A stretch of 64,000 bases of DNA. It comes from Methanococcoides sp. AM1. GTDB taxonomy: Archaea > Halobacteriota > Methanosarcinia > Methanosarcinales > Methanosarcinaceae. A program made the translations under genes and the position numbers. The notes under the pieces were generated by a model. It searched no databases. It saw only the letters and a list, made by a program, of their open reading frames with translations, and was not told the origin of the DNA. This document shows positions 25,628 to 51,625 of this stretch, in pieces. Position 1 is the first letter of the stretch, and each line of letters begins with the position of its first letter. The DNA lies in assembly GCF_900774055.1 (NCBI RefSeq), contig NZ_CAAGSW010000001.1:79797-143796 (forward strand), in the 5' to 3' direction.

Positions 25628-27259
25628 ATGAACACTCAAATATTTAAAAATTTATTAACACTGACAATTGTATTGATGTGTATAGTAACAATGTCATCTA
25701 ACGTCCTGGCTACACCTGCCATGGAAGATGAATGGCATCAGTACCAGAAAAATGCACAACACATAGGATTTACAAATTCCGATGCTCCGGATACCAATAC
25801 CATATTGTGGACAAGTAATGATATCGGGGCCATAAGCGGATCTTCACCGGCAGTTGCAGAAGGTAAGGTTTATGTCAACTGCGGCGATGCCGTAAAAATA
25901 CTGGATATGTACAACGGTACATATCTAGGAAATGCAGATGTATTCGGAAGTTCCGGTTTTGATTCGTGGACCTCGCCTTCATATCATGGAGGAAGGGTCT
26001 GGTGTGGCCATCCTACTGGCGTAAATGGCGGTACACTCATAGCTGATGGAAAATATTATCATGGAGACTATGGAGGTTATATGTATCATTGCTACAACGA
26101 GAGCACTGACACTGAACTGTGGAGTTTTTATGTGAACGGATATTCACAGGGAACTCCTGCATATAGCGATAATAAAGTATACTTCACAGGATGCCTCTAT
26201 CAGGACAGCGGCTATGTTTATTGTGTCGATGCAGACACCGGCTCAGAGATATGGAGCAAAACATTTGATAGCGAGACCGATGGGACTCCAACTATCCATG
26301 GCAATACATTGTACGTTACAACCTATAATTGGGAATCTAATACGTATGGAGACCTTATTGCAATGGATAAGAACACAGGTGAGATACTTTGGTCACAGAC
26401 TATTCAAAGGACCGATTCGGCACCATCGATCGCTTATGGAAACGTCTACGTATCCGGTGGCTGTTATGCATTCTCAGCACTTCAAACATATTGCTTCAAT
26501 GCTACTACGGGCGAACTTGTGTGGAGTACCGAGGAGAGCGGAACAGGCCTTGGCGACTGGAAAGTTTCCCCGGTAGTTGCTGATGGAAAGGTCTTCGTCG
26601 GGAAAGCTGATGGATCCTACACCTACGCAGGCCTTTATGCTCTGGATGCTTTCACCGGAGAGACGGTCTGGGCATATGCAAGAGGAGGATCAAGCCCTGC
26701 CATATCAGATGGTATTGTCTTTACGGTCGGGAAAGCCGGAAAAGTTACGGCCTATGCTGAAACATCACCGGACCTTGAAACTTCGACCATAGTACAATCA
26801 TTTGCATCTTTCGGACAATCAAATAATATGACTGTCCAGATCAAAAACAATGGTAATGTGGATGCAGGTTCGTTTGAAGTTATGATGTTAGTGGATGGAG
26901 TCACATTAGATACAAAGACTGTGTCATCCCTGGCAAAGACCTCAAACGCAGAAGTCACCTTTGAGTGGACACCTGCAGCCGAGGGAGAATATGAACTGCA
27001 GATTGCCCTGGACACACTGAATAGCATCGATGAAAGGGATGAAGCCAATAATTACTTTGCCAAGACCGTAACAAGTGCTAACGATGTAGACTGGAACCCA
27101 TGGAACAATATGAATTCTGATGGAGCAATGGCAATTACAACCCCTGAGTTGCAGGAAGGTATCTACTACTGGCTAAGCGATTTGCCGGCTCCGGTCACTG
27201 GAGAAGTCATCACTACTGAAAGACTACAGCAATTGATCTACGACTGGCTGAACTCTTAA
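25628..27259 (+). CDS. Secreted PQQ-like beta-propeller protein with CARDB domain and WNPW dockerin-like C-terminal module
   Basis: 543 residues from the ATG at 25628. GGTGGTTGAT lies directly upstream and an earlier GTG start is rejected. A signal peptide (cleavage near VLA-TP, about 30) is followed by six to seven PQQ/quinoprotein-type blades (GLYALDAFTGETVWAYARGG and similar) to about 375. A CARDB-type adhesion domain (about 380-480: TVQIKNNGNVDAGSFEVMML) comes next. The last 55 residues are VDWNPWNNMNSDG followed by two helices of the form ITTPELQEGIYYWL and ITTERLQQLIYDWL. No PGF-CTERM tail. The C-terminal module recurs in five other places here. Confidence 0.85.
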   Translation: MNTQIFKNLLTLTIVLMCIVTMSSNVLATPAMEDEWHQYQKNAQHIGFTNSDAPDTNTILWTSNDIGAISGSSPAVAEGKVYVNCGDAVKILDMYNGTYLGNADVFGSSGFDSWTSPSYHGGRVWCGHPTGVNGGTLIADGKYYHGDYGGYMYHCYNESTDTELWSFYVNGYSQGTPAYSDNKVYFTGCLYQDSGYVYCVDADTGSEIWSKTFDSETDGTPTIHGNTLYVTTYNWESNTYGDLIAMDKNTGEILWSQTIQRTDSAPSIAYGNVYVSGGCYAFSALQTYCFNATTGELVWSTEESGTGLGDWKVSPVVADGKVFVGKADGSYTYAGLYALDAFTGETVWAYARGGSSPAISDGIVFTVGKAGKVTAYAETSPDLETSTIVQSFASFGQSNNMTVQIKNNGNVDAGSFEVMMLVDGVTLDTKTVSSLAKTSNAEVTFEWTPAAEGEYELQIALDTLNSIDERDEANNYFAKTVTSANDVDWNPWNNMNSDGAMAITTPELQEGIYYWLSDLPAPVTGEVITTERLQQLIYDWLNS

Positions 27260-27290
27260 GGCGTTATAAATAGCTGAATGGTCAGCATAA

Positions 27291-27309
27291 GGCACCTCCT
27301 GCAGGTGCC
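27291..27309 (+). terminator. Intrinsic terminator of the beta-propeller/CARDB gene
   Basis: Perfect 7-bp stem GGCACCT/AGGTGCC followed by ATCTTTTTTATT. Confidence 0.85.
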
Positions 27310-27414
27310 ATCTTTTTTATTAATTGTGCCTGAACCTGAAAAATGAAGAAAATCATACGGCAGTCAGGATTATTATTATTAATAAAACTAACAACTGTTA
27401 TGCTGAAGAGAAAC

Positions 27415-27423
27415 TTTTTATAG
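27415..27423 (+). promoter_or_regulatory. TATA box of the ABC importer operon
   Basis: AGAAAC (BRE-like) precedes TTTTTATAG, about 50 bp upstream of the ATG at 27469, inside a 209-bp spacer. Confidence 0.4.
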
Positions 27424-27468
27424 TGATATACCGATTGATTGTAAACTTAAGAAAAGAGAGAGATAATA

Positions 27469-28596
27469 ATGTTCAAAGGTTTTTATGTCTTATTTTTAAT
27501 CCTTGCACTGATATCTGCTTCAAATGCAAGCGCGATAGAATCCGGTATGACAGAATACCCGCTTACCATAGTGGATAATGTGAACAATACTATTACAATA
27601 GAAAGTAAGCCTGAAAGGATAGTGTCCACCATGCCAAGCAACACAGAGATACTTTTTGCTGTAGGTGCCGGAGATAATGTGGTCGGCGGCACGATCCACG
27701 ATGAGTATCCACCCGAAACTGCAGATATCCCGAAGGTGGGAGGATATACCAACCTTGAATTTGAATCGATCGTCAGCCTTGAGCCTGATGTTATATTTGC
27801 TTCTGAAGCAAACGGCGAAGATGCCATCAATATACTAAAGGACCTGGGATTTACTGTAATAGTAATCGAGCCAAAAACCATCGATGATATCATGAGCAAC
27901 ATCGAACTGATAGGAGAAGTGACCGGGAATAAAGAGATGGCACTATCGATCACCGATGATATGAGAACACAGATGGATGCCATCACAAGTAAAACAACCA
28001 ACATCCCTGCTGAGGAAAGGCCTCGTGTGCTCTACCTGGTCTGGCATGATCCAATGTACTCTGCCGGACTTAATTCATACCCGGACAACCTCATAACCAT
28101 GGCCGGTGGAGACAATATACAGAAAGCTGAAGGATGGCCGGTCATCAATCTTGAAGATGTCGTAGACAGCAATCCACAGATCATAATCTGTTCCGGAATG
28201 GGCGGAGCATCATATACAATTATGGACTCAATCAAAAATAATGATGCGCTGGCCCAGACAGATGCCATAAAGAATAACAGGATCTACCCTATCGCTGACC
28301 CCAGCATCATCGAGATCCCTGGCCCCAGGATCGTGGAAGGATTGAAGGAATTAGATATATACATCGAAGCTGAGATAGGGGGCTATGAAGTGGAAGAAAC
28401 TGTGATCAAAGCCAATGATGAACAGTCAGAAGATGCGACACCACTGGACAATACACCCGAAAACAGCGAGTCAGATATCCCGGCCAGTGAAGATGGAAAC
28501 TGCGAGGAAGTCCCGACAACCAGCTCACCTGGATTCAGCGTCCTGATAGCTTCATGTATGCTAGCAGCAGGATACCTCAGGGCAAAGCGTTCCTGA
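27469..28596 (+). CDS. ABC importer substrate-binding protein (BtuF/FecB type) with PGF-CTERM tail
   Basis: 375 residues. A signal peptide (about 1-22, NASA) leads to a periplasmic-binding-protein type 2 domain. Its typical segments are KPERIVSTMPSNTEILFAVGAGDNVVGGT, SLEPDVIFAS and RVLYLVWHDPMYSAG. There is no lipobox. An acidic/Pro/Ser linker at about 310-350 ends in SSPGFSVLIASCMLAAGYL and basic KRS, a PGF-CTERM sorting tail, so the protein is probably archaeosortase-processed and anchored at the surface. It precedes a permease and ATPase in one operon. Ligand class is a metal chelate such as cobalamin, haem or siderophore; which one cannot be told. Confidence 0.9.
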   Translation: MFKGFYVLFLILALISASNASAIESGMTEYPLTIVDNVNNTITIESKPERIVSTMPSNTEILFAVGAGDNVVGGTIHDEYPPETADIPKVGGYTNLEFESIVSLEPDVIFASEANGEDAINILKDLGFTVIVIEPKTIDDIMSNIELIGEVTGNKEMALSITDDMRTQMDAITSKTTNIPAEERPRVLYLVWHDPMYSAGLNSYPDNLITMAGGDNIQKAEGWPVINLEDVVDSNPQIIICSGMGGASYTIMDSIKNNDALAQTDAIKNNRIYPIADPSIIEIPGPRIVEGLKELDIYIEAEIGGYEVEETVIKANDEQSEDATPLDNTPENSESDIPASEDGNCEEVPTTSSPGFSVLIASCMLAAGYLRAKRS

Positions 28597-28614
28597 ATAC
28601 AAATACGGAAAAGG

Positions 28615-29646
28615 ATGAAGATGGCAAGAGACGGAAAAGCTGTAATGGTCTTACTTTCGGTATTGCTGGTAGCCATGATCGCCAGCAATACCGCAATAGG
28701 CAGCAGCGATATTTCACCTGTCGACACCGTTAAGATAATGGTTACTGCCATTACTGAAAAATTAATGCTCGGAGATATCCTGAATATCGAGAAGGTATGG
28801 AGCGATAGCCAGGGAACTATTATAATGAACATAAGGCTTCCGAGAGTCCTCCTTGGAGCTTTGGTGGGTGCAGCTCTTGCAACCGCCGGTTGTGCCATGC
28901 AGGGATTGCTGAAAAATCCCATGGCTGACCCATACATAATAGGGATGTCTTCAGGTGCCGGCCTTGGTGCAGCTCTTGCTTTTGCACTGATGTTACCCTT
29001 ACAGCTTCTTGCTTTTGTGACAGCAGCAGGATCCATTTTCATAGTCTACAATATATCGAGGATCGGAGAAAGAGTACCTACGGAAACACTGTTGCTTGCA
29101 GGAATTGCTGTTGGTTTCTTTCTCTCGGCAGTCACGTCTTTCATCATATTCCTTTCCCAGTCACCACACCAGATAATATACTGGATGATGGGAGGGCTGT
29201 GGACTGCCAGCTGGGATAAAGTGAAGATCACTTTTGTTATGATACTTGTGGGTATTTTCATGCTCTACCGGCAATCATGGAACCTCAATGTTATGCTCCT
29301 TGGTGAGGAACAGGCACAGTGCATGGGAGTGGATATCGAGAAGGTAAAACGAAGCGTACTCATATTCTCATCACTTGTTACTGCAGCTGCAGTATCTGTT
29401 AGCGGGATCATAGGTTTTGTAGGACTTATCATACCACACATAATGAGGATTATCGTGGGGCCTGATCACAGGATACTCCTGCCCACATCAACCCTCATGG
29501 GAGCAGTATTCCTGGTGTTCTCAGACACTATTGCAAGGACAATACTCGAATCCACCGACCTGCCCGTAGGAGTTGTTACCGCCTTTTTCGGAGCTCCTTT
29601 CTTCATTTACCTGTTAAGGAAGAGGAGAAAGACAATCTATGCTTGA
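28615..29646 (+). CDS. BtuC/FecCD-type ABC permease
   Basis: 343 residues with about ten membrane helices. Family marks are IMNIRLPRVLLGALVGAALA, GCAMQGLLKNPMADPYIIGM (the conserved NPLADP-like loop) and GFVGLIIPHIMRIIVGPDHR (the EAA-like coupling segment). It forms the homodimeric membrane channel of a metal-chelate importer. It lies 18 bp after the binding-protein gene and overlaps the ATPase gene by 8 bp. Two close ATG starts (28615 and 28621) are possible. Confidence 0.95.
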   Translation: MKMARDGKAVMVLLSVLLVAMIASNTAIGSSDISPVDTVKIMVTAITEKLMLGDILNIEKVWSDSQGTIIMNIRLPRVLLGALVGAALATAGCAMQGLLKNPMADPYIIGMSSGAGLGAALAFALMLPLQLLAFVTAAGSIFIVYNISRIGERVPTETLLLAGIAVGFFLSAVTSFIIFLSQSPHQIIYWMMGGLWTASWDKVKITFVMILVGIFMLYRQSWNLNVMLLGEEQAQCMGVDIEKVKRSVLIFSSLVTAAAVSVSGIIGFVGLIIPHIMRIIVGPDHRILLPTSTLMGAVFLVFSDTIARTILESTDLPVGVVTAFFGAPFFIYLLRKRRKTIYA

Positions 29647-30418: not shown

Positions 30419-30472
30419 GATCTCATTTTTAAGCAAATGGTAAAAGAAATAAAAACCTTTTGGGATATATCT

Positions 30473-32533: not shown

Positions 32534-33295
32534 TTATTTTTGTCTTTTAGTACCTTTTACACAAAATAAAGACATCAGTAGTCCTGAAACAGCCATTATA
32601 AGTTCAAAACCCGGAGTATTAGGCTCCGAATCCTGAGATTGTACATCATCCCGGGAAACTTCAGTGTTTTCAAGTTCCCCTACAGGTTCTCCCCCGGTGA
32701 CCGGATCAACATTACTTTCTTCTTTATTCACTTCAACGCTTTCTTCCGGAATTATTTCAGCAGAAGAAGTGGAAGTATCTGTTAAAGAAGAGACAGTTGA
32801 AGAAGAATCGTCGGTATTACCTGTGTTTCCAGAAGACGAAGAGCCTGTAATAGTGATCGTGTCATCACCTATGATCGGGACGGAAATGTATTCATCGGAA
32901 CTTGTATAAAACGATGCTTTACCATGAATAATATAAGTTCCTGCTTTTTCACTTGATGGAACCGTCACTTCATATACCAGATCCCTGGATTCACCCGGGA
33001 GTATATGACCAGACCACATCCATTCATGGGTCGATTCCTTGAAAAGAGCTCCATTATCCTGAACCATGCTCACAGTCCACCCTTCAGGAAGGTCTTCGTC
33101 AATCATTGGAGCCTTGTATGAGTCAGTGGAAGACAAACTAACGGTTACTATGAAGCTGTCACCTGCACTAACGGTATCTTCTGAAATATCTCTACCAACA
33201 GTAATACCTTCATCGGCTAGTGCCGGAGAAGACATTAATGATAACGCTATAACCAATAAACTCAGAAAAACACTGTACTTTTTTAGATTAAACAT
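32534..33295 (-). CDS. PGF-CTERM-anchored surface protein with a single beta-sandwich domain
   Basis: 253 residues. A signal peptide (about 1-27) leads to the recurring SAGDSFIVTVSLSS domain with DEDLPEGWTVSMV. Its second half contains SGHILPGESRDLVYEVTVP. A Ser/Thr/Glu linker of about 75 residues follows (SSSGNTGNTDDSSSTVSS). The tail NTPGFELIMAVSGLLMSLF plus basic KGTKRQK is a canonical PGF-CTERM signal for archaeosortase-mediated anchoring. It is adjacent to, and on the same strand as, the PKD protein with the same N-terminal domain, 27 bp apart. Confidence 0.82.
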   Translation of the reverse strand: MFNLKKYSVFLSLLVIALSLMSSPALADEGITVGRDISEDTVSAGDSFIVTVSLSSTDSYKAPMIDEDLPEGWTVSMVQDNGALFKESTHEWMWSGHILPGESRDLVYEVTVPSSEKAGTYIIHGKASFYTSSDEYISVPIIGDDTITITGSSSSGNTGNTDDSSSTVSSLTDTSTSSAEIIPEESVEVNKEESNVDPVTGGEPVGELENTEVSRDDVQSQDSEPNTPGFELIMAVSGLLMSLFCVKGTKRQK

Positions 33296-35188: not shown

Positions 35189-36493
35189 ATGCAATCAAGA
35201 AATTTAGCACTAGTAATTAGTGCAATGATGCTCGTGGGTTTGCTTGCAATCCCTGCATCTGCCGATACAGACTGGGCACAGTTCCAGGGAGATTCCGACA
35301 AGAACGCTTTTACGGCTGAAGACGGACCTACCTCTGTCAGTACAAGTTGGGAAACCTATATTGGAGGCGGTGGCTGGATGGGAGTCGATTCCACCCCTAT
35401 TGTAGTAGGTAACTACGTATATGCAATGTCCTCTAATGGAAATCTTTCCAAGGTAAGTGATACAGGAACTGCAGTTACTTCAGGAAACTGGCCAGTTGAT
35501 CTGGCTGGAAGCGGTTTCCAGAATTCTGTAGCAGCAACAAACGGAAGTGCAATTTTCGTAGTAACAACAGGTTATAGCAGCGCCACACCAACGCTTTACG
35601 CAATCGATGCAGATGATGGTAGCACACTCTGGGATGAGACAATTGGAACCAGCGATTACCAGTGTTCATGCCCTATCCTCTACGATAATGGTAAACTTTA
35701 CTTTGGTACTGTCAAGATGAGCAACCTCGATGCCACCAATGATAGTGATGATGGAACCTATTATTGCTATGATGAAGACGGAACTCTGGAATGGAGCACT
35801 TCTACAACAGACAACAAAGGATACTACTGGGCAGGAGCATGCAGTGTAGGCAATTATATTGTCTATGGTAACGATGCCGGTAATGTAACCCTGGTCGAGA
35901 AAGCCGATGGTGATGTTGCAGATTCCTTTGACATCAGCACTGTATTCTCTGACAATGCAGAAATCAGGTCAACATGTGTTTTCGATAGTACAAATAAGAG
36001 AATATATTTCACCTCCAAGAGTGGCTATTGCTACTTTGTAGGACTGGATTACAACCAATTTACCCAGGTATACTCCTTCGACACCACCGATACCGCAAGC
36101 AGTTCCAGTATGTCCTACAGTACATCCACTCCTGCAATTGACATCGGCGGAGATGTTGTTTATGTTTGCGCAGGCAGCTTTAGCAGTGGCGGACTGTTTG
36201 CTCTGAATGCTGATGATCTCTCCGAGAACTGGCAACACGGTTCAGATGGCGCACAGTCATCCCCTGTGGTAAGTGAAGATCTGGACAGCACTAAGAACGT
36301 TGTCTACTACACTACAAACGTAGCCCAGGGCACATGTTATGCCGTAAGGGACGATGGTTCTGGTAGCAACGATTACACCCAAAAGTTCGCATACACTCCT
36401 ACCAACGATAACTACATACTTCAGGGTGTAGCAATTTCAGGCAGCCAGGTCTTCTTCGGTAACGATGATGGTTACCTTATTGGACTTGCATAA
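35189..36493 (+). CDS. Secreted PQQ-like beta-propeller protein without a C-terminal sorting module
   Basis: 434 residues. A signal peptide ends near ASA-DT (about 26). The rest is a beta-propeller of PQQ-type blades (PTLYAIDADDGSTLWDETIG; GGLFALNADDLSENWQHGS; final blade VFFGNDDGYLIGLA). It resembles the propellers at 39195 and 42640 but stops at the last blade with no WNPW module, CARDB domain or PGF tail. CGGAG lies upstream of the ATG and a strong terminator follows. It may be released, or captured by another surface protein. Confidence 0.85.
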   Translation: MQSRNLALVISAMMLVGLLAIPASADTDWAQFQGDSDKNAFTAEDGPTSVSTSWETYIGGGGWMGVDSTPIVVGNYVYAMSSNGNLSKVSDTGTAVTSGNWPVDLAGSGFQNSVAATNGSAIFVVTTGYSSATPTLYAIDADDGSTLWDETIGTSDYQCSCPILYDNGKLYFGTVKMSNLDATNDSDDGTYYCYDEDGTLEWSTSTTDNKGYYWAGACSVGNYIVYGNDAGNVTLVEKADGDVADSFDISTVFSDNAEIRSTCVFDSTNKRIYFTSKSGYCYFVGLDYNQFTQVYSFDTTDTASSSSMSYSTSTPAIDIGGDVVYVCAGSFSSGGLFALNADDLSENWQHGSDGAQSSPVVSEDLDSTKNVVYYTTNVAQGTCYAVRDDGSGSNDYTQKFAYTPTNDNYILQGVAISGSQVFFGNDDGYLIGLA

Positions 36494-39194: not shown

Positions 39195-41069
39195 TTAGGA
39201 AGTTAGCCATAGATTGATCAGATTCTGCAACCTGTCAGTTGTGATTATAGAATCTGTTACTGGTGCGGGTTCATCCGTTAGCCAGCAATTGATCGCCTCC
39301 TGCAGTTCTGCTGTATCGATAGCTGAACTTAAAGTCGAGTGTGGATCATCCCATGGGTTCCACTCTGCAAGCCCGAAAAGATAGCCCCTGTCATTGCCAT
39401 AGAATATACGACCGTCCTTTATCGCCACACCATGCAGCGTATATTCATTCAGTTCAGAGGGGGCTTCATAGTACCACTGAAGTTCAGGCTCAGTATTTCC
39501 CGTATAATCCTTCAGGCAATATACCCTTGCATCATCAATGTTCGTGGTGAAGTAGATGTATACTTCCCCATCCCCGTCATCGTAGGCAGTGGATATTACC
39601 GGAGAGCCCTGTACACCACCATTCGGAGTGTATTTCCAGATCTGTGAAAGATCAGCTTCGTTGAGGCAATAAACATCTCCCGAGCCTGTGAAAGTACCTG
39701 TACCCACGTATACCCTGCCATTGTAAACAGTTGGAGTACATGTGCTTTTACCGATGGAGGCCTTCCGGGCATCCGCAGTGTTGAAGGTGCCGTCCTGATT
39801 GAAACCGATCGAGAAGCAGTAACCCGCTTCTGAAGAGGAATAGAGGCGACCTGTTTCCGGAACATATGTTATCGAATTCCTGATCTCATCCCGTTCTCCG
39901 CCATAACCAAAGCCCAGTAGTTCGGAAACGTTTACTTCATCAACAACGGTTCCGTCATATTTGTCCAGGGATGTAAGATGAAGGGCATCATCACCAAAAA
40001 TCATATATCTTCCCACAACTGACGCTCCGGCCCAGTAATAGCCCTTTCCGGTAGGTGAAACATATGTCCAGGCCAATGTGCCATCTTCATTATAACAGAA
40101 GTACTTGCGGTTTGTTTCTCCGAAACTTTGCCATTCCCCGAAATAAACCCTGCCATCATCATACATTACAGGAGTGTTCAACTGGGTGAATTCCAGGTTT
40201 TCAGAATCAACAGTGACATTAAACAGCTCATCGCCTGATATGGCGTCATACGCATAAAATTTCCCGAAAGCGGTAACAAACAGTTTACCGTTCCCGTAAG
40301 CCGGGGTTCCAAGGGGAGCAGTGACACCTTCGGCAATATCATTCGTCCATTTAATATCCCCTGTGTTCCTGTCAACTGCAAATACGGAGCCCATTGCTGA
40401 CACATAAACCATATCCCCTACTACAAGAGGGTGCACATCGATTCCATAAGCACCTGCTATCCCGTATGTCATAGTAGACCAGGATTCTGACATATCCGGT
40501 TCCTGAACAGGAGCCCTGTCGCTTGTGACAGCATTGTTGTACAGATCTTTGCCGATCAGGGGCCAGTCCGTGGAAGTGAATACCTCATCACCGATAATCT
40601 CTACTGTGGAATCACCGGTGACTGCACCACCCACAAGGATCTCTGCATCAAAAGCAAATGCATTTGCCTCCCCAGTAATACTTTTAGCACCGGGACCTTC
40701 TCCGGAAGGGATGGTGACAGTATAGACATAAGTTACGGTATCCCCGGGAGATATTTCCTGAGCAACAGCCTGCCATGTATAGGAATCTCCGATAGGAGTA
40801 GGACTGCCATAACCCGCATTGTCGACTTCTGCGAAAATCCAGCCACTTGGCAATGTTTCTGTAGTTTGCATGGATACAAGATGATCAGTGGAAGAACCGG
40901 TACATTCCAGCTCCACTGTAACGGTAAAGGTATCTCCCGGCTCTGCATCAGTCACCGAAATAGATCGAGTTGCTGTCAACCCTATATCTGCCAGGGCAGG
41001 AGTTGCCATGACAGTAAGGTAAACTATTACCATAAGCAGCAATAAACTAATTGTTCTTTTTACATTCAT
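39195..41069 (-). CDS. Surface protein: N-terminal beta-sandwich, PQQ-like beta-propeller, WNPW dockerin-like C-terminus
   Basis: 624 residues from the ATG at 41069, chosen because GAGGT precedes it; an ORF extension to 41090 lacks such a site. A signal peptide (ALA-DI) is followed by the recurring DAEPGDTFTVTVELEC beta-sandwich at about 30-145. A seven- or eight-blade PQQ-type propeller runs from 160 to 560 (SVFAVDRNTGDIKWTNDIAE; GDVYCLNEADLSQIWKYTP). The C-terminal module is WNPWDDPHSTLSS followed by IDTAELQEAINCWL and IITTDRLQNLINLWL. N-terminal DNA is almost the same as in the genes at 41838 and 44607. Probably a surface adhesin or enzyme scaffold; no ligand known. Confidence 0.85.
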   Translation of the reverse strand: MNVKRTISLLLLMVIVYLTVMATPALADIGLTATRSISVTDAEPGDTFTVTVELECTGSSTDHLVSMQTTETLPSGWIFAEVDNAGYGSPTPIGDSYTWQAVAQEISPGDTVTYVYTVTIPSGEGPGAKSITGEANAFAFDAEILVGGAVTGDSTVEIIGDEVFTSTDWPLIGKDLYNNAVTSDRAPVQEPDMSESWSTMTYGIAGAYGIDVHPLVVGDMVYVSAMGSVFAVDRNTGDIKWTNDIAEGVTAPLGTPAYGNGKLFVTAFGKFYAYDAISGDELFNVTVDSENLEFTQLNTPVMYDDGRVYFGEWQSFGETNRKYFCYNEDGTLAWTYVSPTGKGYYWAGASVVGRYMIFGDDALHLTSLDKYDGTVVDEVNVSELLGFGYGGERDEIRNSITYVPETGRLYSSSEAGYCFSIGFNQDGTFNTADARKASIGKSTCTPTVYNGRVYVGTGTFTGSGDVYCLNEADLSQIWKYTPNGGVQGSPVISTAYDDGDGEVYIYFTTNIDDARVYCLKDYTGNTEPELQWYYEAPSELNEYTLHGVAIKDGRIFYGNDRGYLFGLAEWNPWDDPHSTLSSAIDTAELQEAINCWLTDEPAPVTDSIITTDRLQNLINLWLTS

Positions 41070-41090
41070 ATTTGTACCTCTATTATTCAA

Positions 41091-41837: not shown

Positions 41838-42614
41838 TCAGTATCTTTTACACAAATACACGGACATCAATAGCCCTACAACAGCTAACATAAGATCGAA
41901 AACCGGGAGTTTAGTCTCAGAATCCGGATGTTGTACATCAGCCTCGGAAACATCAGAGTTCGGAAGTTCCTCCGCAGACCCTTTCCCAATGATAGAATCG
42001 ATACTGCTCCCTTCTTCATTCACTTCAACATTACCTTCAGAAATTGATTCAGTAGTGAACGTGGAAGTACTTGTTGAAGAAGAGTTGCTTGAAGAAGGTT
42101 CATCAGAAATATCAGCGTTTCCGGAAGATGCCGATCCCATTACAGTGATCGAAGAGTCACCTGAAACCGCACCACCCACAATGATCTCTGCGTCAAATGA
42201 AAATGCATTTGCTTCCCCGGTAATACTTTTAGCCCCGGATTCTTCCCCGGAAGGGATGGTGATATTATACACATAAGTTACTGTATCCTCAGGATACATT
42301 TCCTGAGCAACAGCCTGCCATGTATATGAATCTCCGATAGGAGTAGGGGTGCCATAACCCGCATTGTCCATTTCGGCGAAGATCCAGCCGCTTGGCAACG
42401 TTTCTGTAGTCTGCATGGATACAAGATGATCAGTGGAAGGACCACTACATTCCAGCTCTACTGTAACGGTAAAGGTATCTTCTGGCTCCGCATCAGCCAC
42501 CGAGATAGATCGAGTTGCTGTCAACCCTATATCTGCCAGGGCAGGCGTTGTCATGACAGAAAGGAAAACTATTGCCATAAGCAGCAATAGTCCCACTATC
42601 CTTCTTACATTCAT
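41838..42614 (-). CDS. Surface protein with one beta-sandwich and a degenerate PGF-CTERM-like tail
   Basis: 258 residues from the ATG at 42614; a longer frame to 42674 would run into the preceding gene and has no ribosome site. A signal peptide is followed by the DAEPEDTFTVTVELEC beta-sandwich (about 30-145), nearly the same as in the gene at 39195. A Ser/Thr/Glu-rich linker follows (SSSNSSSTSTSTF and a Glu/Asp section). The tail KLPVFDLMLAVVGLLMSVYL plus CKRY has the position and layout of PGF-CTERM, but with PVF in place of PGF. It thus corresponds in architecture to the protein at 32534. Confidence 0.8.
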   Translation of the reverse strand: MNVRRIVGLLLLMAIVFLSVMTTPALADIGLTATRSISVADAEPEDTFTVTVELECSGPSTDHLVSMQTTETLPSGWIFAEMDNAGYGTPTPIGDSYTWQAVAQEMYPEDTVTYVYNITIPSGEESGAKSITGEANAFSFDAEIIVGGAVSGDSSITVMGSASSGNADISDEPSSSNSSSTSTSTFTTESISEGNVEVNEEGSSIDSIIGKGSAEELPNSDVSEADVQHPDSETKLPVFDLMLAVVGLLMSVYLCKRY

Positions 42615-42639: not shown

Positions 42640-44346
42640 TTACATCGGGGTCTGCTTTTTCCATTTAAACACAAGTAGCTGGATGTCCGAATTTGAAATT
42701 ATGTGACCCGTATCTATCGGGGTCTGCTTTTTCCATTTGAACACGGCAAACTGAATCTCGCTGTTTGTTATCAAGCTTCCACCATCTGACTCAGGGTTGT
42801 TCCAGGGATTCCAATCGACATTGATATAGCCCACCTTTGTTTTCATGTCCATTCCCTGTGAACCTATCGCTGTCAGGGTTACGTTGTAAACGCCTGCCGT
42901 ATCATAAATGTGTACAGGATCCCTTACGGTATAGTCCGTGTTTCCATCACCATCCACGTCCCATCTCCACATGGTTGCTCCGGTGGACAGATCGTTGAAT
43001 TGCACAGTGAGTGGAGCATCCCCTGAGGTTGTATTTGCCGTGAAATCCGCAAAGACATATTGCGTGTTGAGGCTTTCACTGGTAGCAAGGCTGAACAGGT
43101 AGCCAAGATCATTGCCATAGAATATCCTGCCGTTCGAGATGGAAACTCCCTGAAGGGTATACTGGTTCTTCTCTGAAGGTGGCTGGTATTCCCACATCAC
43201 GTCCATCTGGGTGTTTCCCGGAAGATCCTTCAGGCAATATGTCTTTGAATATTGACTATTTGTGGTGAAGTAGATATAGATCTCACCGTCCCCGTTATCA
43301 TAGGCTGTGGATATCACAGGAGAAGCCTGTACACCGCCATTTGGAGTATGGCTCCATATTGGTGAGAGGTCCGATTCATTCAGGCAATAGAATTTCCCAT
43401 TAGATCCGTAAAGGCCACTTCCTACGTATACCCTGCCATTATAGACCACAGGAGTTGAGGTACTCGCCAGATCAATATCCTGCCTGATTACATCCGATTC
43501 ATTGAAAGTTCCGTCCGGGTTCATACCTACGGCATAGCAGTAACCTGCTTTGGATGAAAAGTAGATCCTGTTGTTCTCCTCGTTGTAGCAGATCGATGAA
43601 GAGATCTGGAGGGCATCAAAACCCGGCCACAGGGAGGACATATTAAGTTCGTCCACGGTTGTGCCGTCATTTTTGTTGACGGAAGTAATATAGGACCCAT
43701 CGTCCCCGAAAACAAGGTAATCCCCTGAACTTCCAACCACTGATGCTCCTGCCCATTTATACTGTTTTCCGCTGGAAGATGGCCTGCTCCAGCATTCTGT
43801 CCCGGTACCATCATAGCAGTAATATTTGTTATCTCCTTCAAAGTCACCGATGTATATCCTGTCACCAATGAACGTGATAGGAGAATTCAATTCTCCGGAA
43901 GATACTGTGACATTCCAGAGCTGAACTCCTGTCACAGCGTCGAAAGCATGGACCTTCCCGGCATTGGTGGGAACGAACAGCTTTCCGTTACCGTACGCAA
44001 GGTTCCCTGTAAGGAAACCACCGCCACTTGAGGAATTTGTCCATTGCAGCACTCCTGTGTTCTTATCATATGCCCACACCGACCCGTCAAATGTTGATAC
44101 ATACACCATGTCCCCGACAACAAGAGGAACAATATCTATTCCCCCCATGCCATTTGAAGCCACATACGTGTCCCAGCACTGCGAAGTTTCAGGCGCGGTT
44201 ATAGGTGCTTTGTCAGACGTTATGCCTGTCCTTTGTGTATTCACCTGGAATTGTGTCCAGTCGGCTGCTGAAACCAACATCGGCATAAATATCAGAATTA
44301 TGAGTATTGAACTTAGAAACAAAAATGTTCGTTGATCTTTTTTCAA
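42640..44346 (-). CDS. Surface protein: PQQ-like beta-propeller, PKD domain, two-repeat WNPW/WKKQTP C-terminus
   Basis: 568 residues with a TTG start at 44346 supported by GGAGGG seven bases upstream. After a signal peptide (SAA-DW) comes a PQQ-type propeller to about 430 (SVWAYDKNTGVLQWTNSSSG). A PKD domain follows (about 435-510: DAPLTVQFNDLSTGATMWRW). The C-terminal module is VDWNPWNNPESDGGS then ITNSEIQFAVFKWKKQTPI and IISNSDIQLLVFKWKKQTPM. Those two repeats are 24 residues apart, and the encoding DNA repeats at 72-bp spacing. The 3' end lies 26 bp before the next gene's start. Confidence 0.85.
   Translation of the reverse strand: MKKDQRTFLFLSSILIILIFMPMLVSAADWTQFQVNTQRTGITSDKAPITAPETSQCWDTYVASNGMGGIDIVPLVVGDMVYVSTFDGSVWAYDKNTGVLQWTNSSSGGGFLTGNLAYGNGKLFVPTNAGKVHAFDAVTGVQLWNVTVSSGELNSPITFIGDRIYIGDFEGDNKYYCYDGTGTECWSRPSSSGKQYKWAGASVVGSSGDYLVFGDDGSYITSVNKNDGTTVDELNMSSLWPGFDALQISSSICYNEENNRIYFSSKAGYCYAVGMNPDGTFNESDVIRQDIDLASTSTPVVYNGRVYVGSGLYGSNGKFYCLNESDLSPIWSHTPNGGVQASPVISTAYDNGDGEIYIYFTTNSQYSKTYCLKDLPGNTQMDVMWEYQPPSEKNQYTLQGVSISNGRIFYGNDLGYLFSLATSESLNTQYVFADFTANTTSGDAPLTVQFNDLSTGATMWRWDVDGDGNTDYTVRDPVHIYDTAGVYNVTLTAIGSQGMDMKTKVGYINVDWNPWNNPESDGGSLITNSEIQFAVFKWKKQTPIDTGHIISNSDIQLLVFKWKKQTPM
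42646..42744 (-). repeat. 72-bp-spaced DNA repeat encoding the WKKQTP tails
   Basis: CGGGGTCTGCTTTTTCCATT occurs at 42646 and 42718 with matching flanks. It encodes the two halves of the C-terminal module of the upstream propeller gene. Confidence 0.75.
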
Positions 44347-44606: not shown

Positions 44607-47087
44607 TTATTCAGGAGAGTCAAGCCACTGTGTGATGACGAACTGCAACCTGTCTGTGGTAATTTGTGCCTCTGTTACCGGAGCAGGTGCGTCGGTAAGC
44701 CAGCAGTTGATTGCCTGCTGCAGTTCACTGGTGACCACGTTCTCATCAGCTACAGAGTCAACATCATCCCATGGGTTCCAGTCATCGCTGATTGCAATAG
44801 AAGCATCCCCACCTACAGGAATGTCATCAACATCTGCTCCAAGAGCGAATGCAGAAACCAGACCTGTGAAGGTATAGTCAGCCATAGGCTCATCGTATGG
44901 AATCTGTACGATGTATGAGATGGTTACTTCCTCTCCATCAGTCATATTGTCTGCCCATACCCATTCATAGGTATCTGCTGCATCAGGGTATTCCCTGAAT
45001 GATGAACCATTGTTGTCTGAAGGAGTTAATATCCATCCTTCTGGAACATTTTCCTTAAGAGTCAATGCTTCAATATCTCCTACAGCTTCCATTGTAATGG
45101 TCACAAGGGTTGCATTGTGCTGTGTGACACCTTCAGCTTCGAGGAAGCTGTCCTGCATGAAGGTCTGGTACATGATATCCCTGGTTGCAATTACCGGAGT
45201 ATTTTCGTTCATGTTGACATTGATGCACACACCATAGTTTGCACCGTCTGCGCCAGCAACCCATGTACCGGTTTCATCCTGTGTCCAGAGTGGAGCATAG
45301 AACTCAACGACATCGCCATCATTGAGATAATTGGCACCGAGACCATTATCTGCTGGAATTCCATTGATCAGAATTCCCCAACCTGTACCGCCTACAGCAC
45401 CGATATCATTGATCCAGAAGGAAGCAGGATATGGATCTGATGCAGGGGAATAGCTTGCATCGATATCAAGACCGGTTTCCATAAGAGCTGCAAGGTCTGT
45501 ACTGGAATCCCAGGAAGTTCCTGCAGCAGGGTCGACTGAACTTGGATCGATCTTGCCGTATTTGTCAAGTGTAACTTCATATGACATCAACACAAGGCTG
45601 GATTCGACTTCACTGTTCTCAGCATTCCATGCGCCCATGAGTGGGTAGGTGTCGTTAACCGGAGGAATGTCAGAGATCAAATACCAATCTTCACCAACAC
45701 CGTCACCGTTGCTGTCTTCACCTGCGTAGTCGGAATAGTAGTTACCGAGGTAACCTGTGTAGGTTGTACCCCTGTAGGAGTAGGTTACCGGAGTGGAGGT
45801 GTTACAAACTGCCGGTACTCCGTTATTGTATGCGCTAATACCGTCACAATTAATGAAATTGTTCAGGTATACCTGGCCATTAAATTTTATGGCAGATGTA
45901 GCATTTCTGAATTCATTGTAACGAATGATGTTACTACCGGAGTTGTAAGCATTAATATTTCCAGAAGTGCCTTCAAATACATTGTTCTCTATTAAGAGGT
46001 TACCCCCTTGATTGACAATGTACACGTTATCAAGTGTGTTGCCTCTTAAAATCAAATTGCTGGAGTCACCTCTTATATTACCATTGCCGCTGTTATCCTC
46101 AATTGTTACATCATTGCCAGTAAGCACGAGCTTAGTATATGCTCCAAATGTAGAATTTCTGACAACTGAATTGTCTGCAAGACAAAGGGTTTCAAAATCA
46201 CCAGCAGGAAGGTTAAAGCTACAACCATCATATAACGCATCAGAGTAAGCGTATGCACTATTGCTATCACCAATAGATTCAGGACAACTTATAGCAAGTC
46301 CATCATCAAAAGTTATTCCTACAAATGAAGTTCCAGATGCATCATATATTGGAAATGCTGAAAAGTCGTCTGCTGGATCTAACCCTATAAAAATTGAAGG
46401 CATGCCGCCTGTTGGAGCAATGATTACTTCCCCGCCGTCAGCCATGAAAGTAAGGTTAGGCTTGGCTATGGACAAAACACCCATTCCAATTGAGTTAACA
46501 TCAAGATCATATGCACCAGGAGCCATCATGATTGTGTCCCCGTCCTGTGCAGCGTCCACTGCTGCCTGCAGGGAGTCGCCTGGGCTGATTGAAATTATTG
46601 GGTTGTGAAGGACATTGACATCTGTGTCGCCGAGAGTCGTGCCCGATAAATATACCTCAGAGTCAAATGTCCATGCAGATGATGTTCCGCTGATACTCTG
46701 GACACCACCACTTTCACCGGCAGGAATGGTAACATCATAAACAAAGGTTACAATGTCCCCGGGAACCATTTCCTGGGCAACAGCCTGCCAAGTGTATGAA
46801 TCACCGATAACAGTGGGACTGCCATAACCTGTACTGTCCACTTCTGTGAAAATCCAGCCGCTTGGAAGGATTTCTGTAACAGCCATCGCGGTAAGATGAT
46901 CAGTGGAGGTAAAATCTGTGCATTCCATCGACACTGTAACTGTGAAAGTATCACCTGGTGCCGCCTCGGTAACCGAGATGGATCGATCTGAAGTCAAACC
47001 TATATCTGCCAGGGCAGGGGTTGCCAGGGCAGTAACAGCTACTATTGCCACCATCAACAATAGCCCAAATGTTCTATTTACATTCAT
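44607..47087 (-). CDS. Surface protein: beta-sandwich, right-handed beta-helix, DUF4430-like domain, second beta-sandwich, WNPW C-terminus
   Basis: 826 residues from the ATG at 47087 (GAGGTACG upstream). A signal peptide is followed by the EAAPGDTFTVTVSMEC beta-sandwich. A right-handed parallel beta-helix follows, of the NosD/pectate-lyase-like kind, from about 175 to 460 (SLQAAVDAAQDGDTIMMAPG; later GNTLDNVYIVNQGGNLLIENN). A DUF4430-like section comes at about 520-620 (INDIGAVGGTGWGILINGIPADNG) and a second beta-sandwich to 765. The terminal module is WNPWDDVDSVADEN with VTSELQQAINCWL and ITTDRLQFVITQWL. The beta-helix suggests binding or cleavage of polysaccharide; active residues were not identified. 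Confidence 0.84.
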   Translation of the reverse strand: MNVNRTFGLLLMVAIVAVTALATPALADIGLTSDRSISVTEAAPGDTFTVTVSMECTDFTSTDHLTAMAVTEILPSGWIFTEVDSTGYGSPTVIGDSYTWQAVAQEMVPGDIVTFVYDVTIPAGESGGVQSISGTSSAWTFDSEVYLSGTTLGDTDVNVLHNPIISISPGDSLQAAVDAAQDGDTIMMAPGAYDLDVNSIGMGVLSIAKPNLTFMADGGEVIIAPTGGMPSIFIGLDPADDFSAFPIYDASGTSFVGITFDDGLAISCPESIGDSNSAYAYSDALYDGCSFNLPAGDFETLCLADNSVVRNSTFGAYTKLVLTGNDVTIEDNSGNGNIRGDSSNLILRGNTLDNVYIVNQGGNLLIENNVFEGTSGNINAYNSGSNIIRYNEFRNATSAIKFNGQVYLNNFINCDGISAYNNGVPAVCNTSTPVTYSYRGTTYTGYLGNYYSDYAGEDSNGDGVGEDWYLISDIPPVNDTYPLMGAWNAENSEVESSLVLMSYEVTLDKYGKIDPSSVDPAAGTSWDSSTDLAALMETGLDIDASYSPASDPYPASFWINDIGAVGGTGWGILINGIPADNGLGANYLNDGDVVEFYAPLWTQDETGTWVAGADGANYGVCINVNMNENTPVIATRDIMYQTFMQDSFLEAEGVTQHNATLVTITMEAVGDIEALTLKENVPEGWILTPSDNNGSSFREYPDAADTYEWVWADNMTDGEEVTISYIVQIPYDEPMADYTFTGLVSAFALGADVDDIPVGGDASIAISDDWNPWDDVDSVADENVVTSELQQAINCWLTDAPAPVTEAQITTDRLQFVITQWLDSPE

Positions 47088-47148
47088 TTTCGTACCTCTA
47101 TTTTTCACTCTGTGTTTTTACTCTTCTTTTTATTTTTCAAAGCTTGTT

Positions 47149-50100
47149 TTACATGGGAGTTTGTTTTTTCCACTTGAATACAAGTAGCTGGATATTCGAA
47201 TTTGATATCACATAACCTGTACTCGGCAGAAGTGTCTGCTTTTTCCACTTGAATACAGCATACTGTATCTCGGAATTGGAGATCACTGCACCACTTTCAG
47301 AGAGCTCATCATTGAAAGGATTCCACTCACTTTCAATGCAGTAGACACCAGCATTGGTACCATAGTACACCTTGCCCTGGGAAACTGCAGCTCCCTGTAA
47401 AACATAGCTATTATCACCAGGAGGATTATACTCCCAGATGAGCATGCCATTCTCGTCGATACAATACAAGGACCCGTCCTCCATTGCCGACGTGAAATAA
47501 ATAAACGGTTTATCGTAATAGGTTGAAACGGCCGGTGATGATTTTACACCATCCGGTACATCGTATGACCAGATCAACTGCCCTGTGGAATCATCCACAC
47601 AGTTGAGCTTACCAGTATAGCCGTGCTCCCCCTGTCCGACATACACCCTGCCATTATAGACCACTGGAGTAGACGTGCTGAAACCCTGCATCAGGCTCCA
47701 TCCATCATTCAGGATTTGACCTGTACTGGAATCAAAACCTACCTTCCAGAGGAAACCCATAGCCTGGCCCTGCTCAGAGGTTGTATAGACATAACCGTCT
47801 TCATATACCACTGAAGAGCGGAACAGACCCGGAGTTTCGTTTGCAAAAGAGATCCTGGTATCCAGATCGCTGTCAAGGTTCACCTCATCGACAAGTGTAC
47901 CGACCTTCCGGTCAAGGCATACCAGTTTACCCTCATGTGTAGAATAAACAACATAATCTCCGACAACTGCAGCACCGTTCCAGAGGAAGCCGCCACAATC
48001 AGCATTCGGATGGCTCCACAGGTGATTCCCAAGATCATCATAACAATGGAAATATTTGGTGCCCACACCCTGTCCCAGGCCATCACCAATGTATATCCTG
48101 TGATCATAGTAGGTTATCGGGGATTCGAAACAGTCCCCAGCAACATCGATTGTCCACTGCTCAACACCGGTATCAGCATTGTAGGCAGACAGGGATCCAC
48201 TCTTTGATGCAACGAATATATTACCATCGCCGTATGCCGGAGTACTGGACTGGATAACGGCAGGATCAAGACCTTTCTTCCACAGGTAAGTTCCATCGTT
48301 CTTATTATAGGCATACAGTGAACCATTTGAAGTGAAAGTGTAAACCACATCTCCAACCACAACCGGCGGACAATCCACACGTTCTCCTGAAAGATCTACA
48401 CTCCATTTGAGAGCTGCAGAGTCCTCGATCGGAGCATAGCTACCTGTTTCACCAAGGTTGTTCCACCCATTCTGGAACTGCGCCCAATCATCGACTGCAA
48501 GGGTCTCGATCGTCGTTTCGGGCATCACAGAAACTGAGACATCTAACGCGTTGTTTGATTCTGAAAGTTCCTCATTCCCATAATCCGTGTCAACGGTAAC
48601 GGTTAATGAACTGTCACCGGTGGTGGATGGTGTCCATGTAAAACTGACATCTTCACTTGTACCCGGAGCCACTGCAGGCAATGTAACATCACCAATAATA
48701 GTACTGCCTTCCTTAACAGTAACAGTGCAGGGAACAGAATACTTGTAACCGATGTTATTGACAGTAGCTGTCATATCATAGACCTGGTTCACGTAGATCT
48801 CAGATGGCGTAAGAGATATAGGCTGAAGGTCACAACCTCCGTCCATCACGTAGATGGATTCCGAGATGATATTGTTTGCTTCATTATTTTCCACGATAGA
48901 ATCCTGCGGATCAACAGAGATCGAAATTGTGTGCGTACCTGCCTCAGCTACTGTAGGTGTCCAGACAAATGTGACATCCTCTGACCAACCTGCGGCAACA
49001 TCGATTGTCTGACTGCTGATCTCCACCCCGTCGTCCAGCAGGGAAACCTTTACATCGGTGATGTAAGTTGTTCCCTGGTTTTCGATGGTCGCTGTAAACT
49101 CATTTGGAATATCAACATATGCCTCCAGGGTTGCAAGATCAAGGCTCGTAGGCGTCAGGTCATTGACAGCATTGCCTCCATCATAACAATATAGGCTCTT
49201 ATCATTGTGTATCGTGAACAGTTTGCCATTGTATATTGCCGGCGAGGAACCTCCGTAAGGAGCTATCCAACGCATTTCACCGGTGAGTGCATCCAGGGCG
49301 TACAAAGTATCATAGCCACTCGTCATTTCGCTACCACTAGGCGCAGCGCCCCTTCCGACATACACCTTCCCATCAGCAACAGCTACCGATTCAGTCCAGT
49401 GTCCGATCCAGAGAGAACCGTCTGTTTCCCACACAGTATTACCGGTAGTTGCATTGAAACAGTAGACTTTACCCCATTCGTAGCCACCAGCCACATAGAC
49501 ATTGCCATATGCAAGTGCGGGGGTTCCATCCGTCCTCCATGTTTCACGCTCCCAGATTATTGAACCGTCATTGGCATCAAGCGCATACGTGGCACCATTA
49601 CCGTAGAAATTATAACTAGATACGTAAACACGTCCATCGTCCCCGCAAGCCACAGAACCGCATCCATTCTGTTCCATTGAGGTCTTCCACTTTTCAGTAC
49701 CGGTTTCAGCATCGACACAATATACGAAACCCTGTGCAAGAGAACCATTCTCAACGTGCTGGTAACTGAAACTTGTCAGGTATGCTTTACCATCCATATA
49801 GGCAACACAGCCCTGAGCCCTGGGACCATTAAGTCCTGTTCCACCGGAGTCATAAACTGAAAAGTTCCATAACTGTGTACCGTCCGCTTCATTAAGACAA
49901 TAATAGTGCCCTCCATCCCAGTCGCTGCAGAATACCTTTCCATCTGCAATGGTCGGACCACCATTTACAGAAGCAGCTATAACACCTTCAACCGGCGGAT
50001 TCACAAATGTCCATTCAATATTCCCTGTTGCTGCATCGATACATGATGTGTTTCGCCCCGATGATGTGAACACATAGCCATTATGGTATGCAGGTGAAGA

Positions 50101-50454
50101 CCAGGACCCATATTCCATGGAATCTAACTCAGTACTCCAAACCAGACTTCCATCGGTAATATCAACTGCTTTGATCCAGCTATAACCGTCAGGTCCGACG
50201 TATTGATAGCAATTCACAAAGGCCTTACCCTCAGCAATGACCACAGATGAATCCTTTATAGCATGAATAGGACCAGTTGTCCAGGCGATATTGTTCGTGT
50301 CCGGCCCATCGACCTGATAACCTGTGTGCTCAACATCCTTGTGGAACTGATGCCACGAAACATCTGTTGTCTCTTCTGCCATAGCTGGCGAAACAAGCAA
50401 TACTAAACTCAAAAAAATGAGTGTAAAGATAATTGTTTTCAACTTATTATTCAT
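47149..50454 (-). CDS. Giant surface protein: two PQQ-like beta-propellers, two CARDB domains, WNPF/WKKQTP C-terminus
   Basis: 1101 residues from the ATG at 50454, with GGAGGTT upstream. A signal peptide (AMAEE) is followed by a first propeller to about 430 (ATYALDANDGSIIWERETW), whose beginning matches the protein at 25628 (WHQFHKDVEHTGY versus WHQYQKNAQHIGF). Two CARDB domains lie at about 435-635 (TIENQGTTYITDVKVSLL; TVNNIGYKYSVPCTVTV). A second propeller runs to about 1040. The tail is SEWNPFNDELSESGA then ISNSEIQYAVFKWKKQTLL and ISNSNIQLLVFKWKKQTPM. It is the largest member of the local family and a likely outer-surface scaffold or adhesin. Confidence 0.86.
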   Translation of the reverse strand: MNNKLKTIIFTLIFLSLVLLVSPAMAEETTDVSWHQFHKDVEHTGYQVDGPDTNNIAWTTGPIHAIKDSSVVIAEGKAFVNCYQYVGPDGYSWIKAVDITDGSLVWSTELDSMEYGSWSSPAYHNGYVFTSSGRNTSCIDAATGNIEWTFVNPPVEGVIAASVNGGPTIADGKVFCSDWDGGHYYCLNEADGTQLWNFSVYDSGGTGLNGPRAQGCVAYMDGKAYLTSFSYQHVENGSLAQGFVYCVDAETGTEKWKTSMEQNGCGSVACGDDGRVYVSSYNFYGNGATYALDANDGSIIWERETWRTDGTPALAYGNVYVAGGYEWGKVYCFNATTGNTVWETDGSLWIGHWTESVAVADGKVYVGRGAAPSGSEMTSGYDTLYALDALTGEMRWIAPYGGSSPAIYNGKLFTIHNDKSLYCYDGGNAVNDLTPTSLDLATLEAYVDIPNEFTATIENQGTTYITDVKVSLLDDGVEISSQTIDVAAGWSEDVTFVWTPTVAEAGTHTISISVDPQDSIVENNEANNIISESIYVMDGGCDLQPISLTPSEIYVNQVYDMTATVNNIGYKYSVPCTVTVKEGSTIIGDVTLPAVAPGTSEDVSFTWTPSTTGDSSLTVTVDTDYGNEELSESNNALDVSVSVMPETTIETLAVDDWAQFQNGWNNLGETGSYAPIEDSAALKWSVDLSGERVDCPPVVVGDVVYTFTSNGSLYAYNKNDGTYLWKKGLDPAVIQSSTPAYGDGNIFVASKSGSLSAYNADTGVEQWTIDVAGDCFESPITYYDHRIYIGDGLGQGVGTKYFHCYDDLGNHLWSHPNADCGGFLWNGAAVVGDYVVYSTHEGKLVCLDRKVGTLVDEVNLDSDLDTRISFANETPGLFRSSVVYEDGYVYTTSEQGQAMGFLWKVGFDSSTGQILNDGWSLMQGFSTSTPVVYNGRVYVGQGEHGYTGKLNCVDDSTGQLIWSYDVPDGVKSSPAVSTYYDKPFIYFTSAMEDGSLYCIDENGMLIWEYNPPGDNSYVLQGAAVSQGKVYYGTNAGVYCIESEWNPFNDELSESGAVISNSEIQYAVFKWKKQTLLPSTGYVISNSNIQLLVFKWKKQTPM

Positions 50455-50513
50455 CAATAATAACCTCCATTAGAGATTTTACAATTTTTTATCCAAAGTT
50501 ATGTTATATATTA

Positions 50514-50784
50514 AGATCATACCTGGTCACCACACCAATTATATATTGTATGATATTTAAACAATATATTGCATATTGAACTTAAAATTAAAAGGATTAT
50601 ATATACTTAAAGGTATTGAGTTAGATAACTTATTTTAGCTATATTGATAATATGAAATATATAAGATTCAAATATTAGACTAATTCCATCATTTCCCCTA
50701 TTAAGAGGGGACATCACGCTTTTTTTATCCAATCTAAAATTACATTTTGAGATCATACCCGGTCACCACACCAATTGTATATTG
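50514..50784. repeat. Direct 35-bp repeat pair upstream of the giant surface-protein gene
   Basis: AGATCATACCTGGTCACCAC followed by ACCAATTATATATTG at 50514-50548 recurs at 50750-50784 with two substitutions. Poorer similarity continues on both sides (TTTTTTATCCAA before; TTATATATA/AAGTTAG-type text after), so a segment of roughly 236 bp seems to have been duplicated and then diverged. Confidence 0.65.
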
Positions 50785-51239
50785 AACATCTTCAGATAAA
50801 CAGTTAGGATTCTGACTTTAAAATGATAGGTTTTTACATATATAAAGTTAGTTATTTGAATAATACAACTTATTGAATTGGATAATTGTAGCAAAATATT
50901 AACAGTCACCAACTTGCCAAAATTTCGAAATCCACGGTTACAAACAGGCCTGATAACTTGCATTAAACCAATATAATCAAAAGCAGCTTTTGGTATCCTT
51001 CAGAAAAAGTTCTGCTCTATTTACATTGAAAATATTTCAAAAAATAACAGAGCAAAAAACGAGTCAATTTGAGCAGATCAATGAAAAAGAAGCGTCCTTT
51101 TGATCAAATATCTATCTGGTTCCCACCTTCTTTGTATAAATGTGAACAGACATGAAAATGATGTCTGATCCCATATCAATATGCGTATTGGACGGATGTC
51201 CGCTAGTATCCGGCATCAACTTACGTTATGAAAATGTAT

Positions 51240-51269
51240 GCAGTTATCCCCATTAAAAGAGATAACTGC
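51240..51269. repeat. 9-bp perfect inverted repeat
   Basis: GCAGTTATC and GATAACTGC flank a 12-nt A-rich loop. No T-run follows on either strand, so it is not an obvious terminator; it may be an operator or transcript structure. Confidence 0.4.
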
Positions 51270-51352
51270 ACAATTCCGCTTATGTGCCCGACAAAGTCCT
51301 TCTATAATAGAAACGAACCTATCCCACTTTTCAGATGCCAGCAACGACCATT

Positions 51353-51625
51353 TTACATGGGGTACTGGTTTTTCCAGTAGAGCACTGCGAGCTGAATCTC
51401 GCTATTTGCTATAAGGCTACCTCCGTCCGAATCCGGATCATTCCAGGGATTCCAGTCCAACACAATATAAGGCCTGTAAATGACATAATCACTTACCTCA
51501 GCCACTGCATGGTTCACCACCCCGCTGTAACCAGAACCGTCTGTTCCGGTGTAGGTCTGCACATTACCACTAATGTTTGCACCGGTGATCAGCACATTTA
51601 CAGCACCCGAGTATACAAATTGAAT
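51353..51625 (-). pseudogene. Truncated 3' fragment of a surface-protein gene ending in the WNPW module
   Basis: An open frame from 51625 (preceded directly by two stop codons) to the stop at 51353 has no convincing start; a GTG at 51595 is possible but lacks a clear ribosome site. It encodes VYSGAVNVLITGANISGNVQ and similar text, then YIVLDWNPWNDPDSDGGS and IANSEIQLAVLYWKNQYPM. Only one half of the two-repeat tail remains. It is best read as the surviving end of a larger gene of the local family. Confidence 0.7.

Follow-up and report, generated by a model that had tools for sequence, protein, structure and literature searches.

Five predicted secreted proteins of Methanococcoides sp. AM1, and one gene remnant, share a C-terminal tail of about 55 residues, which is probably a docking module that would act like a dockerin on partners fixed to the cell surface. 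We regard it as a dockerin-like variant, so far unrecognised, that has two or more specificities. This reading draws on co-variation between the two repeats of the tail, on its exchange with other C-terminal modules, on the matching of one tail subtype within genomes, and on neighbouring genes for anchored proteins with a cohesin or cohesin-fold domain. The window is the whole 64,000-nucleotide stretch of contig that was analysed, and positions count from its first letter.

The tail family

The preliminary description of the window had placed the tail at the ends of five complete proteins, at 27259, 39195, 42640, 44607 and 47149; all were found there, the first on the forward strand and the other four on the reverse strand, each tail ending 2–5 residues before the stop codon (Table 1). 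A sixth copy, at 51353 on the reverse strand, is present, but as half a unit only, WNPW plus repeat 1. It lies on a gene remnant whose two pieces align to residues ~737–776 and 887–932 of an intact 958-aa relative, and is by this comparison evidently an internally deleted relative of that tail protein of other genomes. A profile search of the whole 2.48 Mb genome gave exactly six matches (E 7e-31 to 2.6e-17), which excludes chance as the source of the family.

In the alignment, WNPW or WNPF is followed by a Ser/Gly/Asp loop, helix 1 and, at an offset of 25 residues, helix 2, so that the two-repeat unit described earlier is borne out while its repeat length of about 24 residues is corrected. 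The WNPW lead is indeed conserved, yet conservation reaches wider: across 56 non-redundant tails, one Ser of the loop and the Glu at the start of helix 1 never vary. The proposed subtypes, type 1 ending in WL and type 2 in WKKQTP, recur as two classes in relatives.

Pfam and NCBIfam identify PQQ propellers, CARDB, PKD, NosD and DUF4430 in the protein bodies. Neither assigned a model to the tails or matched them to a characterised membrane-anchor or autotransporter domain; searching the tail profile against genomes and Pfam, as had been suggested, recovered the family with no Pfam name. Each of the five window proteins starts with a hydrophobic signal, and none has a membrane segment at its C-terminus. 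Among 100 tail proteins examined, none showed a hydrophobic segment within its final 70 residues, so the tails lack the PGF-CTERM combination of PGF motif, membrane helix and basic end. We found no prior description of the tail in the open-licence literature searched.

Table 1. Tails, candidate partners and associated genes (positions in the window unless a locus is given)
Feature	Position	Strand	Content and basis
Type IV pilus-like operon	18899..25448	-	DUF7289, small protein, T2SSF, T2SSE/PilB3-like, two pilins; immediate neighbour of the first tail gene
Tail, type 1 (WL)	27083..27256	+	On PQQ-propeller/CARDB protein 25619-27259; alignment, genome profile, modelled structure
Second putative anchor	32534..33295	-	Cohesin-fold domain and PGF-CTERM (PF18204, E 2.7e-4)
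Secreted PQQ propeller	35189..36493	+	Neither tail nor membrane anchor; in tail cluster
Tail, type 1	39198..39371	-	On protein 39195-41090, cohesin-fold domain and PQQ propeller; alignment, genome profile
Putative surface anchor	41838..42614	-	Signal peptide, cohesin-fold (NEW3/DUF11-like) domain, Ser/Thr linker, PGF-CTERM-like end
Tail, type 2 (WKKQTP)	42643..42816	-	On protein 42640-44346, PQQ propeller and PKD; alignment, genome profile
Tail, type 1	44610..44783	-	On protein 44607-47108, cohesin-fold domain, NosD beta-helix, DUF4430, second cohesin-fold domain; alignment, profile
Tail, type 2	47152..47328	-	On protein 47149-50457, double PQQ propeller, two CARDB; alignment, genome profile
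Gene remnant with half tail	51356..51610	-	WNPW and repeat 1, type 2; profile, comparison with relative
Two tandem pilin-like heads	L039:8759-10912, L046:6319-8154, L048:2406-4586		Secreted, 612-727 aa; Methanolobus-type clusters
Two-tail adaptor-like proteins	L043:3932-5497, L044:9306-11078, L075:696-3224, L040:2701-4566, L047:8172-10046		

Predicted fold and relation to dockerins

An AlphaFold2 model of the 27259 tail, built from 35 sequences, gives the paired loop-helix organisation with high confidence (pLDDT 92.4, pTM 0.76), as the preliminary description had expected; helices at 21–32 and 46–58 make up the two loop-helix repeats. Foldseek returned nothing significant for this model (E > 1 for dockerins). 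When its hits were re-aligned, dockerins made up four of the six matches listed (Z 2.5–3.0), and the top PDB matches are the dockerins 6kgc_B and 2vn5_B, at a weak Z of 3.0 over 48–50 residues (rmsd 2.9–3.6). These matches, weak though consistent, lend some support to a dockerin-like tail.

Type I dockerins (PF00404), which occur in cellulosomes and in archaeal non-cellulosomal cohesin–dockerin systems, share with the tail a length of ~55–60 residues, a C-terminal place on modular secreted proteins, duplicated loop-helix repeats with internal symmetry at the same contact positions, and two or more specificities. The tail differs in its WNPW lead, in its repeat spacing (25 residues versus ~29–35) and in lacking a family match: Dockerin_1 (PF00404) matches none of 51 tails, its two genomic hits lying elsewhere. 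Hhalign of the tail against genuine dockerins gave a probability of 0.3% (E 0.24) with a reference set of only nine archaeal dockerins. The tails also lack the calcium ligand pattern of two F-hands (positions 1, 3, 5, 9 and 12); in dockerins, cohesin binding usually depends on calcium. In loop 1, position 12 is always Glu and the ligand at position 5 is lost (Gly in 47 of 56 tails); loop 2 has no acidic pattern and usually carries Arg at position 12 (33 of 56). Given no family match, no detectable profile similarity and a second loop devoid of calcium ligands, we do not file the tail in PF00404. The tail had been proposed to be either a divergent dockerin or a new docking or sorting domain. 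Docking is supported, by the paired fold, repeat symmetry, module swaps and within-genome matching, whereas membership of the dockerin family in the strict sense is not established.

Two other candidates were set aside. DUF3717 gave weak matches to 7 of 51 tails (best E 4e-4), which we put down to chance similarity in a single amphipathic helix, and a PDB sequence search returned only PDCD6 EF-hands and two other chains (E 0.2–1). Separately, genome G078, which also has a tail, encodes at ~1500–1660 of L211 a genuine dockerin with two calcium sites (DVNGDGDVDMADALRIMNYWLYG / DMNDDGDVDMADALWIMNCWLNG) and with helix ends similar to the tail's INCWLND; it is a possible bridge between both families.

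Symmetry between the repeats

Repeats 1 and 2 of the same tail are 49% identical, against 27–30% for shuffled pairs. The own-tail similarity has z 10.8–18.9 at every redundancy cut-off (sets of 29 to 126 tails); the shuffles ignore kinship, but the strictest thinning (n = 29) still gives z 10.8. We set the register from outgroup forms that keep a canonical EF-hand loop, which puts EF position 1 at alignment column 9 and position 12 at the invariant Glu, column 20. In this F-hand loop numbering, positions 10, 11, 13–15, 17, 18 and 20–23 co-vary between repeats, and positions 1–9, 12 (Glu versus Arg) and 16 (Ala versus Leu) do not.

Cohesin contacts in type I dockerins lie at 11, 12, 18, 19, 22 and 23 of each F-hand (PMC4728124). 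From our reading of the Ser-Thr pair we took that numbering as one higher than loop numbering, and with this one-off shift the contacts fall at 10, 11, 17, 18, 21 and 22, all six of which co-vary in the tails. Co-variation extends to positions 13 and 20, which belong to the core in dockerins. Fourteen genuine dockerins of Methanosarcinales likewise co-vary at 10, 14, 17, 18 and 21. The tails thus have the internal symmetry of cohesin-contact positions found in dockerins, where it has been tied to dual-mode cohesin binding (PMC4728124). Selection on a repeated contact surface would explain the co-variation better than gene conversion between repeats: plain homogenisation of the DNA is argued against by the lack of co-variation at loop positions 1–9, 12 and 16, and 12 and 16 never homogenise.

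Exchange with membrane anchors and genuine dockerins

Seven tail-less homologues of the 47149 and 25619 propellers, from six Methanococcoides genomes (the tail-less G091, G092, G094, G098 and G099, and one extra copy in G096), have a PGF-CTERM-like end instead; PF18204 picks up two of them at E 0.003, narrowly short of its cut-off, and the other five were called by eye. Identity is 50–54% over a propeller, and a PGF-CTERM-like end never occurs on the tail-bearing homologues. Related cluster proteins carry a genuine dockerin in place of the tail, namely a NosD homologue in G096 and a propeller in G093, both recognised by eye from DxNxNGxxDxxD loops. Some tail-less homologues of the 42640 propeller (in G096, G098 and G099) have neither tail nor PGF-CTERM end. 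PGF-CTERM, a hydrophobic helix processed by archaeosortase A, serves surface retention; the tail has no such helix but takes the same C-terminal place on homologous propellers. Since homologous or related cluster proteins end in one or another of them, the tail, the membrane anchor and the dockerin look like alternatives for one job. Secreted propellers of ~430 aa without tail or anchor, like the one in the window cluster, also occur at L038:15658–16938, L039:4183–5469 and L045:18332–19615.

Candidate receptors

The 41838 gene starts 26 nt past the 42640 gene on the same strand, and its protein ends in a membrane helix with a basic end. Its beta-sandwich domain is 84% identical to that of 39195 and 60% identical to the first one in 44607. 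For the related domain of 32534 the predicted structure has pLDDT 96; Foldseek ranks a cohesin first for it (E 1.4e-5), with structural scores of Z 11.5–12.3 for cohesins and 13 for pilin and integrin domains. The presumed receptor domain resembles cohesin (PF00963) as a beta-sandwich with a cohesin as top Foldseek match, but it fits Ig-like domains of pilins and integrins equally well, the fold is common to many Ig-like domains, and there is no significant family match: PF00963 gave nothing over cut-off on the 32534 and 41838 domains and one weak match on 44607 (E 0.003), and the profile link of the window domains to cohesin is weak (27%, E 7e-4).

In G078, G082 and Methanoxibalbensis the immediate neighbours of lone tail genes encode proteins with a domain of the 41838/32534 type. 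In other relatives true cohesin anchors lie beside tail genes: cohesins with a PGF-CTERM-like end (hhalign 99.9%) overlap tail genes by 12 nt in two Methanococcoides genomes (G093 and G096), and in an ANME-2-like genome a two-cohesin protein lies 332 nt from a tail gene. At ~15 tail loci in all there is no receptor-like gene nearby, and the single tails of Methanosarcina type have none within ~5 kb. The cohesin-like anchor family that adjoins tail genes in other Methanococcoides was not found in the AM1 genome by a weak single-genome search. Taking the cohesin-fold domain of 41838 and 32534 as the partner of the tail is a reasoned guess. Co-occurrence of cohesin and tail across the order was uninformative, cohesins being present in 115 of 186 genomes.

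Some relatives encode proteins in which two tails of different subtype surround a cohesin-fold domain (tail 1 – domain – tail 2), an adaptor-like arrangement (Table 1).

The adjacent pilus-like operon

Six other Methanococcoides/Methanolobus genomes keep the type IV pilus-like operon next to the tail cluster, and an ANME-2-like genome from another family has more distant pilus genes beside its tail genes. A full-length operon pilin occurs in 8 of 8 Methanococcoides/Methanolobus genomes with at least five tails and in 4 of the remaining 30 (Fisher p 1e-5, not corrected for kinship). In three Methanolobus genomes, moreover, the tandem pilin-head proteins have half a tail (TTDELQEVIHYWLN) before each head, replacing the pilin membrane helix. 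From this adjacency in two families, the pilin counts and the half tails one could read the tail as a targeting module for the pilus-like machine, with propellers hung on the pilus, or exported or assembled by its machine, and no cohesin-like anchor. We consider this unlikely: seven genomes have the operon but no tail, ~30 Methanosarcina-type genomes have a tail with no such pilus genes nearby, and signal peptides are enough for export in a one-membrane cell. Pilus and tail are strongly, though not exclusively, associated.

A FecCD/BtuCD-type ABC transporter with a substrate-binding protein (27469–30418) also lies beside the pilin operon, and stays by it in genomes without tails; it is seen as well at L136, L138, L140, L141 and L135.

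Matching of type 2 tails within genomes

When the 42640 and 47149 orthologues of six genomes are compared, identity between their type 2 tails is 71% for pairs from one genome and 41% for pairs from different genomes; for the bodies it is 36% in both cases. The true tail pairing is the best of 720 permutations. Type 1 tails are alike between genomes. A genome-specific partner would give such a match in type 2, and whole-tail gene conversion between the 42640 and 47149 genes is an alternative that explains the within-genome matching alone.

Self-recognition would also be expected to produce the match, and two-tail proteins exist. That tails of one subtype simply pair, so that propellers oligomerise with no separate receptor, is nonetheless improbable, as it leaves unexplained both the surface retention of anchor-less proteins and the swap with PGF-CTERM ends and genuine dockerins. 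Slightly less probable still is binding to a non-protein surface component such as an S-layer glycan or polysaccharide, which the tryptophan-rich lead (WNPW) and helices might suggest, since the fast genome-matched change of type 2 and the two-fold symmetry at dockerin contacts fit a protein partner better.

Proposed mechanism

As a dockerin-like module the tail would work as follows. Tail proteins, having no membrane anchor of their own, would be exported via the signal peptide, after which the folded tail, with two loop-helix repeats and a repeated binding face, would plug into a receptor domain with a beta-sandwich fold, carried by proteins that PGF-CTERM ends hold in the membrane or S-layer. 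The most likely receptor would be the cohesin-fold domain of 41838 and 32534 here, and true cohesins in some relatives. The 39195 and 44607 proteins, which combine a receptor-fold domain with a tail, could chain together, and the two tail subtypes would represent two specificities.

More tentatively, the tails may form a second dockerin-type docking code, largely calcium-independent and with at least two specificities, one conserved and one fast-changing and genome-matched. Such a code would let methanogens and ANME-2 archaea assemble a multi-protein layer of beta-propellers, encoded together with a type IV pilus-like filament to which it may be attached. Quinoprotein-like propellers on the surface of Methanosarcinales have been considered as potential electron acceptors for direct interspecies electron transfer (PMC10470525), and ANME cohesin–dockerin systems as an unsolved part of cell–cell contact (PMC9012536, PMC5244752). 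A docking tag missed by current annotation would name the proteins of such an assembly and give a candidate receptor, and the tail–receptor pair could be a new orthogonal pair for protein engineering.

Distribution and possible origin

The tail is present in 47 of 186 genomes of the order Methanosarcinales, and in a phylum sample of 393 genomes only nine outside the order match its profile, most of them weakly. Named tail-bearing relatives are Methanococcoides seepicolus, Methanolobus profundi, M. psychrotolerans, ANME-2 archaea and Candidatus Methanoxibalbensis; the highest counts per genome are 21 and 22. The ~30 Methanosarcina-type genomes usually have one tail, on a papain-like protease with a lectin-like domain. 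Nearly all copies lie 1–12 residues from the stop codon, and a scan of IMG/VR for the tail found no viral copy.

C-terminal tails with an EF-hand in other Halobacteriota (e.g. YDSNGNGRIEDQELITAIMDWLNNELSDHELINVIMKWLS) give weak matches to the tail profile and have the same helix-pair pattern, and the WxxW lead is present in one genus as well. They differ in keeping a canonical EF-hand loop 1 and in a shorter linker to the second helix, and are likely the ancestral form. The canonical loop kept in these forms hints at an EF-hand ancestor of the tail, from which most calcium ligands have been lost. Distant tail-like helix pairs, unnamed in Pfam, occur in other Halobacteriota (L104, L105, L154–L156, L159 and L160), some of them internal, after PKD or NEW3-type domains.
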